NCBI GenBank assembly: GCA_016930085.1
Contig: JAFGHO010000008.1
Span: 96,146 to 160,145 of the forward strand
Direction of reading: 5' to 3'
Source of the DNA: Spirochaetales bacterium
GTDB lineage: Bacteria > Spirochaetota > Spirochaetia > SZUA-6 > JAFGRV01
DNA length: 64,000 nt
In this document: positions 15,176 through 26,646 of the stretch, one piece after another
Position numbering within the stretch: the stretch's first letter is position 1
How the letters are laid out: every line of letters begins with the position of its first letter
The notes under the pieces: generated by a model
Told to the model about the DNA's origin: nothing
Database searches by the model: none
Seen by the model: only the letters and a program-made list of their open reading frames with translations
Translations under genes and position numbers: made by a program

Positions 15176-16129
15176 TCAGAAATCGCATGAAACAATACCC
15201 ACATAACACTGGGCAATCCGCAGGGCGTCGACGATATTGACGTTACCGTCGCGGGTGACATCCGCGGCAGCCGGATTAAAATTGGAGGGATTGAGACCGA
15301 CGGAGTACTGTGCGACCATGAGTGCATCCACGATATCGATACTCCCGCTCGAGTTCACGTCCCCGAGGGTGACGGATGGGGGATTCGTTACCGACGGCGG
15401 GTTTGTCTGTGCCGGGGGATTGGTCGGGCTGCTTCCCGAAAGAATCTGACTCAGCGCCGCGTACCATTTATCGGCTATTTTCCGGTCACCGGAATCGTTC
15501 GGATGAACGCCGTCATAGGTGTCGGCGGTCACCGAAAATCCCGTCCACTGGTCGACGATCGTGATCGGTGATTGCGAGGTCGACTTCCCGCTTGCCCAGC
15601 CGGGAAGCGAATTGTTCAGGGTAATCACCCGCTGGTCGCAATCGGAACAGGATCTCGACGGATCCATGGGGATAATTTTTGCAACGAGGATTTTCATATT
15701 CGGATTATTCGATCTCATCTGGTCCACCATTTTGCCGAATGCTGCCAGTATGACCGAATTGTCACGCGCACTCCAGCAGTCGTTTGTCCCGAAATGCATG
15801 AGAACGATATCGGGGTTTGTCGACGAAAGCCAGCCCACAAGCTGGTTCTGGTCCGCCACATTGGTGGCAAGCGCCCCGCCGTGTCCTTCATTATCGCCGT
15901 CGTGTTCGATTCCGCACCCCTGCGGGGGGAGTGTCCCGACAAAGTCGATGTCGGTGTAGCCGTTATTCTGAAGCTCCTGCCACAATCTGGCGCGCCAGCA
16001 CCCGGGTGAACCGGTAATCGAATCCCCGAGGGGCATAATCCGCGTCGGCGCAGCGGAAATCATCGTTATCGAGAAAAGAAAGAAGCAGACGATAAGCAAC
16101 ATTGTCCTGATACGTTTTTTTTGATTCAT
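15176..16129 (-). CDS. Secreted SGNH/CE3-type esterase with C-terminal dockerin
   Basis: A 317-residue secreted protein. Signal peptide 1-27; SGNH hydrolase domain about 29-230 with Ser37 (GDS), Asn116 (GTND) and Asp206/His209 (DGVHPN), and a pattern close to family CE3 acetylxylan esterases; Pro/Thr linker 231-255; type I dockerin 256-312 with two calcium loops (DVNSSGSIDIVD and DVTRDGNVNIVD). Likely removes acetyl groups from xylan outside the cell; the substrate is inferred from the family. ATG 16129 follows AAGGAGA. It is one of three dockerin proteins in the window. Confidence 0.85.
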   Translation of the reverse strand: MNQKKRIRTMLLIVCFFLFSITMISAAPTRIMPLGDSITGSPGCWRARLWQELQNNGYTDIDFVGTLPPQGCGIEHDGDNEGHGGALATNVADQNQLVGWLSSTNPDIVLMHFGTNDCWSARDNSVILAAFGKMVDQMRSNNPNMKILVAKIIPMDPSRSCSDCDQRVITLNNSLPGWASGKSTSQSPITIVDQWTGFSVTADTYDGVHPNDSGDRKIADKWYAALSQILSGSSPTNPPAQTNPPSVTNPPSVTLGDVNSSGSIDIVDALMVAQYSVGLNPSNFNPAAADVTRDGNVNIVDALRIAQCYVGIVSCDF

Positions 16130-18259: not shown

Positions 18260-20212
18260 TTAGAAGCCGCCCGGAGGAAAACCGCCGCCGCCTCCGATCG
18301 TCGTTACCCTGCCGTTTACCGTAAAACTCGTCGATTGACTGCCCGGGGAATAGCTTCCGTTCTGATACAGGCCGTCCTTCGCTGTTCCGGAACAACTCCC
18401 GCCGAAGTAGATGTTGTAGGTGGTGCCGTTAGTAAGATTCGGGGATGAAAAGGCGATCGACGCGTATTGCTTGTTGGGCGCGAAGGTGAGGATGCTGCTG
18501 CCGCTTGAGGTTTGAATATTCACGAGGCTGTTCGACTGCTGCGTGGTGAAATTATAAAGCAGCGCATTCTGAGCAGAGGAATTCCCCCCCGGGGCCATGG
18601 CCATGCTGGAAGTACCCGATCCGACAATCAAACCGCCGTTCATTGTAAACGTGCCGTTATAATCGAGGGCGCTGTCGACATTATTGCTGTTTCCATGGAC
18701 GACAACAGTCCCGTTCGTCATCGTGATATATCCGTTACTATCGAGGCCGTCACCGCCGGTGCTGCCCTGAGGCGTCACATCGGTAATATTCACGTAAATG
18801 TAGCCGCCGTTGATATTTATGTAGTAGTCACCGGGCTCGAACATACCCATCCCGCCTTCTCCGCCTTCCGTGTCCGCCGCATTAATGCCGTCATCATCGG
18901 CAACGACACGGATATCGCCGCCGTTCAAGTTTACCACCTTGCTTTCAAGCCCCTCATACGATTTTGTGATATTAATTGCACCGCCGTTCACGTCCAGGAC
19001 CAGATCGGCATGAACGCCGTCGTCTCCCGTGGCAATGTCGAGTGTCCCCCCGCTGATCGTTATCGTGTCGTTCGAGTGGATCGCATCGTCGGATGAATTG
19101 ACATTGACATAGCCCGCTTCGACAAGAACGTTGAGGACCCCCTTGATTCCCTTGGTTGAAACCGAATCGTTCGGCCTTGTGTTGCTTCCGCCCCCCGCAG
19201 TGACTCTGACATTGGACTCTTCATGGGTAATCGTCACGGCGATTTCCGCCTCCATCCCGTCCGCCCCCGAGGACGTCAGGTTCAGGGTGCATTTTTTAAT
19301 CTCGATCAATCCGTCTTCTTCATCATCGGATTTCAGACAATCGCCTTGCGAGGTAACGGTGATATTCGCGCCGCTTTTTATTTCAAGGGAATTTTTACCC
19401 CTGATCCCGTCATCGACGGAGGTGACCGTTATCGTGCAATCCTTGATATTCAGATCGTCTTTACACGCGATACCGTCATTGTAATTTGCGTCGACGGTCA
19501 ACGACCCGTCACCGGAGATGGTAAGGTCGTCCTTTGAAAAAAGCGCTGCGTTCGGTTCATCGTCGTCGGGGTTGTCGAATACGTAATTCGACGGATCAGT
19601 TATGTAATTTTGCGTGTTTTCAACCAGAACGATCTCCGTATCTTCGGCGTTCATGATACTCAAGGGTGAATTGACTGAACTGCTGATATTGATACCGTTC
19701 AAATTAAGGGTGACGAGCAATTCATCCTGTGAATCGACGATAATCCGCCCGTCATTGAGCGTTCCGCTTATGGTGTAGGTACCCCCCGATGTAATGGTCA
19801 CATTCCTGCCGTTCACCACGGTACCGCCGCCATTGACGGTAATCGAGGATCCGTTCAGCTGGATAAGTGTTTCCGCACCGGGTTCCTGCGTGATTCCCGG
19901 TGTCGGTTCGGGCGTCTGGACCGAACCCGCGGGAAACTCCGTAATAAGTCCCACGTAATACTGGGCGATCAAAAGGGCATCGACGATGGAAATCGAACCG
20001 TTTCCATCCACATCCGCGTAAGCGGACTGGAAGTTCGCGGGATTAAGCCCCACATAATACTGGGCCGTCAATAACGCGTCCACGATATCGATGGAACCGC
20101 TCGCATTGACATCGCCAAGGCTTTGTCCCCATAATGCCGCAGGGAAAATAACGGAAGCCAGTAACGCAAAAAAGAACATCACCTTCATTTTTTTTAACCG
20201 TTGTATAATCAT
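18260..20212 (-). CDS. Secreted Cthe_2159-like beta-helix protein with N-terminal dockerin
   Basis: A 650-residue secreted protein. Signal peptide about 1-30; dockerin at 33-90 with two loops (DVNASGSIDIVD and DVDGNGSISIVD); Pro/Thr linker to about 115; then a long repetitive right-handed beta-helix resembling the Cthe_2159 family of polysaccharide-binding proteins (rungs such as DDGIRGKNSLEIKSGANITV, SSDDAIHSNDTITISGG, GDDGVHADLVLDVNGG). Asp-rich turns suggest calcium binding. Having the dockerin at the N-terminus is less usual. ATG 20212 follows AAGGAGGG. Likely binds acidic polysaccharide outside the cell; inferred from the family. Confidence 0.85.
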   Translation of the reverse strand: MIIQRLKKMKVMFFFALLASVIFPAALWGQSLGDVNASGSIDIVDALLTAQYYVGLNPANFQSAYADVDGNGSISIVDALLIAQYYVGLITEFPAGSVQTPEPTPGITQEPGAETLIQLNGSSITVNGGGTVVNGRNVTITSGGTYTISGTLNDGRIIVDSQDELLVTLNLNGINISSSVNSPLSIMNAEDTEIVLVENTQNYITDPSNYVFDNPDDDEPNAALFSKDDLTISGDGSLTVDANYNDGIACKDDLNIKDCTITVTSVDDGIRGKNSLEIKSGANITVTSQGDCLKSDDEEDGLIEIKKCTLNLTSSGADGMEAEIAVTITHEESNVRVTAGGGSNTRPNDSVSTKGIKGVLNVLVEAGYVNVNSSDDAIHSNDTITISGGTLDIATGDDGVHADLVLDVNGGAINITKSYEGLESKVVNLNGGDIRVVADDDGINAADTEGGEGGMGMFEPGDYYININGGYIYVNITDVTPQGSTGGDGLDSNGYITMTNGTVVVHGNSNNVDSALDYNGTFTMNGGLIVGSGTSSMAMAPGGNSSAQNALLYNFTTQQSNSLVNIQTSSGSSILTFAPNKQYASIAFSSPNLTNGTTYNIYFGGSCSGTAKDGLYQNGSYSPGSQSTSFTVNGRVTTIGGGGGFPPGGF

Positions 20213-20677
20213 AAACCCTCCTTTTTTATACCAGGTTACTATTAAACTCCACGTGCAGACCGGTATCTTTAACATATATATACTATGCTTTGGCGGGTAC
20301 ATCGTACCTCACGACGATCCTGTATGAGAGACAATTCACCCGTCCTCTTTAAAATGCACAAATTTTATAATTTAGATCGATATTCCGTAACTCTACAGAA
20401 AAACGCCTTAACAGGTCTGTGCTTTTGATTTTTCATAGTAACATGTCAACGTGCATGAATTGTGACAATTGTGTGAACATTATATGGTTATTTTTTGTGG
20501 TACTCCCTTTGGTAATCGCAATAGTCATTATACATGGGTTATGAAGGATTTCTCGATGAAAAACGGATAATATGCTCCCGTTTATCCCTGTTGTTATCGG
20601 TTTTGGCTGCTTATTTTACCGATTAAAATTTTAATGTAAATAGACACAATTTTATTTAATCAATATACTTATAAATC
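20213..20677. other. Divergent intergenic region
   Basis: 465 bp of AT-rich sequence between the dockerin gene (minus) and the NTF2-like gene (plus). It contains the promoter of the latter and a short palindrome, AATTGTGACAATT, near 20458-20470, whose role is unknown. No open frame that I can support. Confidence 0.6.
20641..20669 (+). promoter_or_regulatory. Promoter of the NTF2/SDR/oxidoreductase operon
   Basis: TAGACA (20641-20646), 17-bp spacer, TATACT (20664-20669). The predicted start is about 20676, 2 nt before ATG 20678; no ribosome-binding site is visible. Confidence 0.65.
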
Positions 20678-25757: not shown

Positions 25758-25777
25758 TGGAGGTGGCGGGAGTCGAA
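25758..25777 (-). repeat. Duplicate of the ssrA 3' end (attachment-site scar)
   Basis: The 20-bp sequence TGGAGGTGGCGGGAGTCGAA is identical to 25837-25856, the discriminator, acceptor and T-loop end of the tmRNA gene. It lies 79 bp away in the same orientation, just beyond the ssrA terminator. Tyrosine recombinases often use exactly this end of ssrA as attB, so this looks like one end of an integrated or partly deleted element. No integrase is present in the window. Confidence 0.65.
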
Positions 25778-25789
25778 TTCTATCGGGCT

Positions 25790-25823
25790 AAAAAAAATTC
25801 CCTTGCTTCTTTCCGCAAGGGAA
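25790..25823 (-). terminator. Intrinsic terminator of ssrA
   Basis: Minus strand: TTCCCTTGC paired with GCAAGGGAA around an 8-nt loop, followed by eight T. It is 14 bp after the 3' end of the tmRNA. Confidence 0.92.
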
Positions 25824-25836
25824 CCTGTTGTTGAAA

Positions 25837-26183
25837 TGGAGGTGGCGGGAGTCGAACCCGCGTCCTGAAGTGAAACACAAAAACGTCTACAGGTGTAGCT
25901 TCTTGTTATTGTTTTCGTCCGGAACAAAGGGAAGAAGCACCCCGCATTCCGGCTTATTCCGCGTTAATGTCCCCGATAGCGTGCGGACCCGCTATCGGGT
26001 AAGTCCCGGTTTGTGACAGGCTTTACCGGGGCTCGGAACAGCGTCCCGGGAGCCCGTGACCGCTTATTAAGCAGCCATTAATTGTGCATCGTTGGCACTT
26101 ATCAATGGTGCCGGGTTAAGGAGTCCGGCGCTCCACCTGCTGTCTTTGCGTTAAACAGCCCCAGTCGAATCCGTTACACCCCC
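25837..26183 (-). ncRNA. ssrA: tmRNA
   Basis: A 347-nt transfer-messenger RNA that rescues stalled ribosomes with SmpB. The 5' end GGGGGUG pairs with CACCUCC at the 3' end (one G-U pair) to form the acceptor stem; the T-arm GCGGGTTCGACTCCCGC is intact; the 3' CCA is not encoded and must be added. The tag frame at 26096-26064 reads ANDAQLMAA followed by two TAA stops, ending in the usual hydrophobic-Ala-Ala degron. The first base lies one nucleotide past the smpB stop codon. Confidence 0.95.
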
Positions 26184-26184
26184 T

Positions 26185-26646
26185 CTATATTTTATATTCA
26201 CGTTCGACGATACGCTTTAAGTCCCGTTTCTTGATATCCTCCCGTTTGTCGTAGGTCTTTTTCCCTTTGCATATCCCTATTTCCACTTTCAGGAGTCCTT
26301 TTACAAGATAAAACCGCAAGGGGATGAGCGTCAAGCCCTTTTCCATGATTTTCCGCTTCAGCCGTTTGATTTCCTGTTTATGGGCGAGGAGTTTTCGTAT
26401 TCTGTCGGGATCGTGATTATGTATGTTACCGAAATCGTACGGTGAAATATGGAGTCCCACAAGCCAGAGTTCGTCGTTTTCCACCTTCGCGTATGAATCG
26501 GTATAGGACAATTTTCCCGCCTTGACGGATTTGACTTCCGTTCCCTTGAGTTCGATGCCGCATTCGAGGGAGTCTTCTACTGTGTAGTTGAACCGGGCCT
26601 TGCGGTTGACCGCGACATTTTTATATTGCCCCGATTTTTCAGGCAT
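26185..26646 (-). CDS. smpB: SsrA-binding protein SmpB
   Basis: A 153-residue SmpB, which binds tmRNA and delivers it to stalled ribosomes. It has NRKARFNYTVEDSLECGIELKGTEVKS, the LHISPYDFGNIHNHDP region, LLAHKQEIKRL and the basic tail GKKTYDKREDIKKRD that enters the decoding centre. The ATG lies 3 nt after the stop of the upstream PEGA/FGE-like gene, with GGAGCGG as ribosome-binding site, so the two are cotranscribed. ssrA begins directly after its stop. Confidence 0.96.
   Translation of the reverse strand: MPEKSGQYKNVAVNRKARFNYTVEDSLECGIELKGTEVKSVKAGKLSYTDSYAKVENDELWLVGLHISPYDFGNIHNHDPDRIRKLLAHKQEIKRLKRKIMEKGLTLIPLRFYLVKGLLKVEIGICKGKKTYDKREDIKKRDLKRIVEREYKI
26191..26196 (-). promoter_or_regulatory. 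Probable ssrA -10 element inside smpB
   Basis: TATAAA is formed by the last sense codons of smpB (Tyr-Lys-Ile) and ends 7 nt before the mature tmRNA 5' G. No good -35 is visible, so ssrA may also be processed from an smpB transcript. Confidence 0.45.

Follow-up and report, generated by a model that had tools for sequence, protein, structure and literature searches.

A repeated tmRNA 3' end in a spirochaete genome and the tail units behind tRNA and tmRNA genes of Spirochaetota

Why would the 3' end of a tmRNA gene recur, in direct orientation, just past the gene's own terminator? The question arose from a 64,000-nt stretch of the genome of a Spirochaetales bacterium (assembly GCA_016930085.1, contig JAFGHO010000008.1), hereafter called the window; its genome is G000 in our comparisons. 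Here ssrA, the gene for a tmRNA with the tag ANDAQLMAA, occupies 25837..26183 on the minus strand according to ARAGORN (Rfam RF00023, 170.6 bits, Rfam extent 25834-26183) and is adjoined by smpB (26185-26646). An earlier note on this DNA had reported that 20 bases of the ssrA end recur 79 bp away beyond the terminator, and our analysis confirmed it. The 3'-terminal 20 nt of the gene (T; 25837..25856, minus strand), which extend from the T-loop to the last base called by ARAGORN, read TTCGACTCCCGCCACCTCCA on the minus strand. The second copy (T'; 25758..25777, minus strand), located at +60, is identical over 20/20 nt and lies in direct orientation, 79 bp away from start to start. Between the copies is a 59-nt spacer (25778..25836, minus strand) made up of the intrinsic terminator of ssrA (25795..25826, minus strand; a 12-pair stem with a U run, identified by folding) and a short remainder. 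The terminator has no second copy beyond T', and the predicted fold of the tmRNA 3' region retains the gene's own T-arm.

Within the 5,363,805-bp assembly (135 contigs, 95.95% complete), T and T' were the only matches to the 20-mer at up to three mismatches, with ~7e-6 chance copies expected genome-wide; the third copy that the earlier note had proposed to look for across the genome was not encountered. Its remark that no second copy lies near 20.4 kb agrees with our search of 15.0-25.74 kb, which contained no recognizable far copy (best other match with 7 mismatches versus 6-7 in shuffled sequences). We also searched the ssrA tail for an inverted T-arm copy, termed antiT, and for the three-way-junction RNA R1, both introduced below. 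Neither was found in the window: the longest inverted match in the tail was 6 nt, the R1 model had no match, and the duplex between spacer and T' was no stronger than chance (236 of 500 shuffles reached its value). RF00023 was the sole Rfam family at gathering threshold.

Copies of the tmRNA end are not confined to this genome. When the genomes of the class were searched with an exact 17-mer of the ssrA end, 90 of 394 contained it. Direct copies on the same contig occurred within 300 bp in 13 of them, with the 79-bp spacing of the window falling below the 162-292 bp of the 12 others, and at a longer range of 1.8-42 kb in five genomes, where they look like islands. G004 carries an inverted copy. 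The earlier note had named the same arrangement in distant relatives, with no variable DNA beside it, as telling against an integration scar; with short-range copies in 12 other genomes of the class, this was largely borne out. As a separate observation, G018 contains a longer tmRNA 3'-end copy 1,831 bp downstream of ssrA with open stretches in between, which looks like a small integrated element.

For quantitative comparison, we scored 97 loci of 91 genomes, comprising 87 of the 90 17-mer genomes (without G026, G530 and G536) and four others. ARAGORN called no tmRNA in 13 loci, leaving 83 genomes, 76 with at least 300 nt downstream. In 12 of the 83, the first 400 nt downstream contained a direct tail copy 12 nt or longer, and R1 accompanied it in 11 of these 12 versus 2 of the 71 others (Fisher p 5.7e-11), with the window as the sole scored direct-copy case lacking R1. 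Among the 12 other short-range genomes, the 10 that were scored as direct copies all contained R1 at the locus (10/10); G503 and G249, short-range by exact pattern, were not scored as such and were found with and without R1 matches, respectively. At the G249 ssrA locus, where the copy lies at 245 bp, direct and long inverted 3'-end copies surround a stretch unmatched by R1, perhaps another type of tail unit.

Inspection of these and further loci revealed a shared layout: the gene's own 3' end, a terminator, antiT, R1 and finally T', the direct copy of the gene's own end. Such units are common behind tRNA and tmRNA genes in Spirochaetota and are sometimes arranged in tandem, with extra units adding further T' copies. 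The upstream part of a complete unit consists of the 3' half of the T-arm and the acceptor strand. In the predicted fold, antiT and T' pair and thereby close a three-way junction, and most units fold in this way on their own. In G003, for example, the ssrA terminator is succeeded by an inverted T-arm copy, then by a stretch rich in hairpins and then by 19 nt that directly repeat the end of ssrA; a second unit comes next, and both units contain antiT and R1. The same layout was detected behind G003 tRNA-Met, tRNA-Glu, tRNA-Leu and tRNA-Gly and behind G007 tRNA-Leu, where the copies match the gene that they follow (T' match of at least 11 nt). Inverted copies also occur behind ssrA in G004, G012 and G007, and partial units with an antiT of at least 10 nt and no T' were seen in G004, G007, G214 and G453, among others. 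In family f1, to which the window's genome belongs, three of the four genomes with intact ssrA carry T-arm copies in the ssrA tail: T' alone in G000, two full units in G003 and an 18-nt antiT in G004. An imperfect T-arm-like stretch, recognized by eye and falling under the 12-nt cut-off, was noted in G002 of the same family. The relatives compared here lie outside the window's genus, and no intermediate state was seen among them.

The R1 model was built from 16 aligned units, seven from G003 and G007 and nine from a further set of loci; the longest of 17 excised units, from L269, was omitted from the alignment. For that set, 80 of 120 stretches were taken up as loci. By title, 10 of these 80 belong to Spirochaetota, and a same-strand tRNA lies upstream in 7 of the 10 versus 0 of the 70 others. 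In the alignment, 92.7% of cells are paired and 19 of 25 pairs changed on both sides, a level reached by 0 of 500 shuffles, although slid controls favor the structure because it was derived from the same alignment. The phylum survey, with eight candidates scored per genome, detected R1 in 84 of 392 genomes. At gathering threshold, Rfam assigned no family besides tRNA and tmRNA to six carrier loci, and at four further R1 loci the units were covered by sub-threshold Rfam matches alone. None of 20 pattern stretches from viral contigs matched the model, and R1-like spirochaete elements were not recognized in the literature searched (open-licence PMC text).

The ends of R1 units match the gene that they follow. 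Of 54 matches, a set that includes the 16 training units, 47 lie at most 450 nt downstream of a same-strand tRNA or tmRNA gene. Across these 47, the 3' end of the unit matches the end of its own upstream gene over a mean of 16.6 nt versus 5.2 nt for other genes, and matches of at least 12 nt were found for 83% of own genes versus 0.9% of other genes. The set comprises 53 of the 59 matches of one search plus one more, omitting L207 and L247, which repeat other loci, and four weak second units. Because helix P1 of R1 looks like a T-arm, T' itself contributes part of the R1 score. Independent loci (L325-L354) contributed 36 of the 54 matches; 33 of these 36 have a tRNA or tmRNA gene upstream, and T' reaches at least 12 nt in 29 of the 33. 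A further set, from which 25 of 26 R1 matches were used after omission of the weakest, gave 16 with a tRNA gene upstream within 450 nt, 14 of which have a T' reaching 12 nt or more; by eye, the other nine include later tandem units and truncated tRNAs. Exceptions were L342, where the unit does not match the upstream tRNA-Asp, and L337 and L340, with no whole tRNA upstream; L268 and L328 lie near contig ends. In a separate survey, the PF01797 Y1 transposase was detected in seven of nine chosen R1-bearing genomes versus none of five chosen genomes without R1, and also in G000; G003 and G249 are among the other genomes noted with it. We rejected it as a candidate mobilizer, since the association is confounded by genome choice and genome size and G000 carries the transposase without R1.

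Among known systems, the closest layout is that of the Escherichia coli tyrT locus. There the tRNA-Tyr 3' end recurs, like the spirochaete T', in three exact copies of 19 nt at 178-bp spacing, and, like the unit layout, an inverted GGGGAAGGAT precedes each core; four matches to RtT (RF00391) cover the locus. RtT is described with a tandem GA motif in part of PMC7657543, and by eye R1 likewise has tandem G.A steps. Passages of PMC2965389 place RtT-like sequences among the interspersed repeats of enterobacteria; RtT is recorded in enterobacteria and in Pasteurellaceae, where it is called upstream of tRNA genes, in excerpts of PMC2965389 and PMC4986893. The latter text also states that tRNA transcripts release RtT RNAs, which modulate the stringent response. 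RF00391 had no match over cut-off and one below it in 296 Spirochaetota genomes, with no match in G000, and a search of five loci, four of which carry R1, gave no RtT match at E values up to 3. In G251, another genome of this phylum, a sub-threshold RtT match of 34.6 bits falls in a stretch that contains a repeated sequence. In layout, the spirochaete units resemble the tyrT repeats, but the sequence of R1 places it outside RF00391. The copy in the window belongs to neither.

A second resemblance is to CsrA sponges of the CsrB/RsmZ type. R1 has GGA in the P2b loop in 49 and in the P3 loop in 34 of 57 distinct sequences, and sub-threshold matches to rsmX and PrrB_RsmZ were also obtained. Unlike these sponges, R1 often has CGA in the P3 loop. 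Of 10 genomes, 9 yielded a CsrA match; the exception, G385, carries R1. A CsrA sponge role for R1 is, on these sequence features, a weak lead.

The tRNA genes of the window's own genome were surveyed as well. ARAGORN called 42 tRNAs in the fetched loci of G000 and 35 in those of G003, compared with 46 and 39 in another count. In the G000 survey, T' within 350 nt was found behind tRNA-Asn: a 19-nt copy at +134, accompanied by two hairpins and a degenerate antiT. This antiT pairs with T' at -24.8 kcal/mol, a value that 0 of 500 shuffles equaled, with an exact inverted match of 5 nt; the core is not R1. R1 was not found in G000, for which eight candidates were scored in the phylum survey together with 30 tRNA loci from the genome. 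A 17-nt match behind tRNA-Ser was not counted as T' since it falls in neighboring tRNA-Ser genes. Behind tRNA-Val, where the region of interest extends over ~700 bp of downstream sequence, the gene's 3' end recurs after ~660 bp, over 25 nt according to the script and ~32 by eye, and the copies enclose two small open reading frames (ORFs) that are HicB/HicA-like by eye, possibly a mini element with a toxin-antitoxin pair.

Taking these data together, we lean towards T' in the window being the downstream end of a former tRNA/tmRNA tail unit, left behind when antiT and core were lost, a reading that we judge the most likely of the explanations considered and somewhat better than an even proposition. 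The ancestral ssrA tail would have held T, terminator, antiT, core and T', and deletion of antiT and core would leave T' alone. Such units would be transcribed by read-through past the terminator and may have spread between genes. We favor this reading because R1 is present at 11 of the 12 scored direct-copy tmRNA loci, with the window excepted, because ssrA tails of family f1 carry T-arm copies and partial units exist elsewhere, and because a T' lies behind tRNA-Asn of the same genome, together with two hairpins and a degenerate antiT. Against it, the window contains neither antiT nor R1, its 79-bp spacing is short and R1 was not found in the genome; moreover, the core behind G000 tRNA-Asn is not R1, and the short-range copy of G249 has no R1 match.

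Site-specific integration at ssrA offers a different account, in which T and T' are att sites and either an island, perhaps the 20.6-25.7 kb block, or a neighboring element was later deleted, or the integrase and the far att site were lost. The 20-bp repeat begins in the T-loop, as with the Dehalococcoides ssrA islands, which insert at this position according to passages of PMC3146451; the same passages describe several repeats downstream of ssrA and repeats bounding islands, of which sixteen possess an integration module. Island-like long-range copies in five genomes of the class also fit integration. So does the block beyond T', whose proteins were absent from the ssrA-flanking stretches of 25 relatives save for weak SDR matches (22-27% identity) in three; these stretches, several of which end within a few kb on the block side, contained SmpB in 21 of 25 relatives. 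Variable DNA therefore abuts the repeat of the window, yet nothing links the block to it: the block sits beyond T', not between the copies, which enclose 59 nt and no kb-sized element. The GC content per kb is 39-44% in the block and 44-45% in 16-18 kb. As a side observation, two dockerin type I proteins, a GDSL lipase and a Cthe_2159-type protein, are encoded at 15176-16129 and 18260-20302 of this spirochaete genome.

The earlier note had called for a search for an integrase; PF00589, searched genome-wide, gave five matches, all on other contigs than that of ssrA. Pfam identified no recombinase in the 13 proteins scanned near ssrA (ORFs between 15.2 and 28.3 kb), nor did PHROGs in the five proteins of the block. 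Compared with the Dehalococcoides islands, the window has 59 nt between copies and no recombinase in the proteins scanned. Precise excision of an integrated element restores a single copy. We consider an integration scar unlikely because precise excision would leave one copy, the contig has no PF00589 match and there is no far copy, in keeping with the lack of a third copy in the assembly. Of what the earlier note proposed, the end of a short or lost element comes close to the eroded tail unit that we prefer, and no support was found for an integration scar or for the 20.6-25.7 kb block having left attB/attP remains.

A further possibility involves no element, the ssrA 3' end having simply been duplicated in tandem when replication slipped or switched template at the terminator hairpin. 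This would account for a copy that lacks antiT and core, and the hairpin lies between the copies. We nevertheless regard this account as improbable, given that the repeat, like those of tail units, runs from the T-loop to the gene's last base, that the terminator was not duplicated after T' and that R1 occurs at 11 of 12 scored direct-copy tmRNA loci, the window being the twelfth. A role for T' in its own right, such as that of a decoy or alternative tmRNA partner in a putative read-through transcript, could explain a 20-nt identity outside the gene but seems very improbable, as the identity may only reflect youth and the predicted fold retains the gene's own T-arm.

Beyond the window, the data leave us evenly divided on a broader proposition: that Spirochaetota carry widespread tail elements, small RNAs with a three-way junction located behind tRNA and tmRNA genes, which would spread between genes and acquire direct and inverted T-arm copies at each site, with E. 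coli tyrT/RtT as a distant and the window as an eroded instance. The tyrT repeats have long been regarded as an oddity of one locus. With a large spirochaete family of the tyrT layout behind many tRNA genes and tmRNA, their origin and function become a comparative question. Finding the 3' end of a tRNA or tmRNA gene repeated in direct orientation is, furthermore, not by itself evidence of an integrated island. The feature of the window alone is modest; the interesting result is the family of spirochaete tail units.
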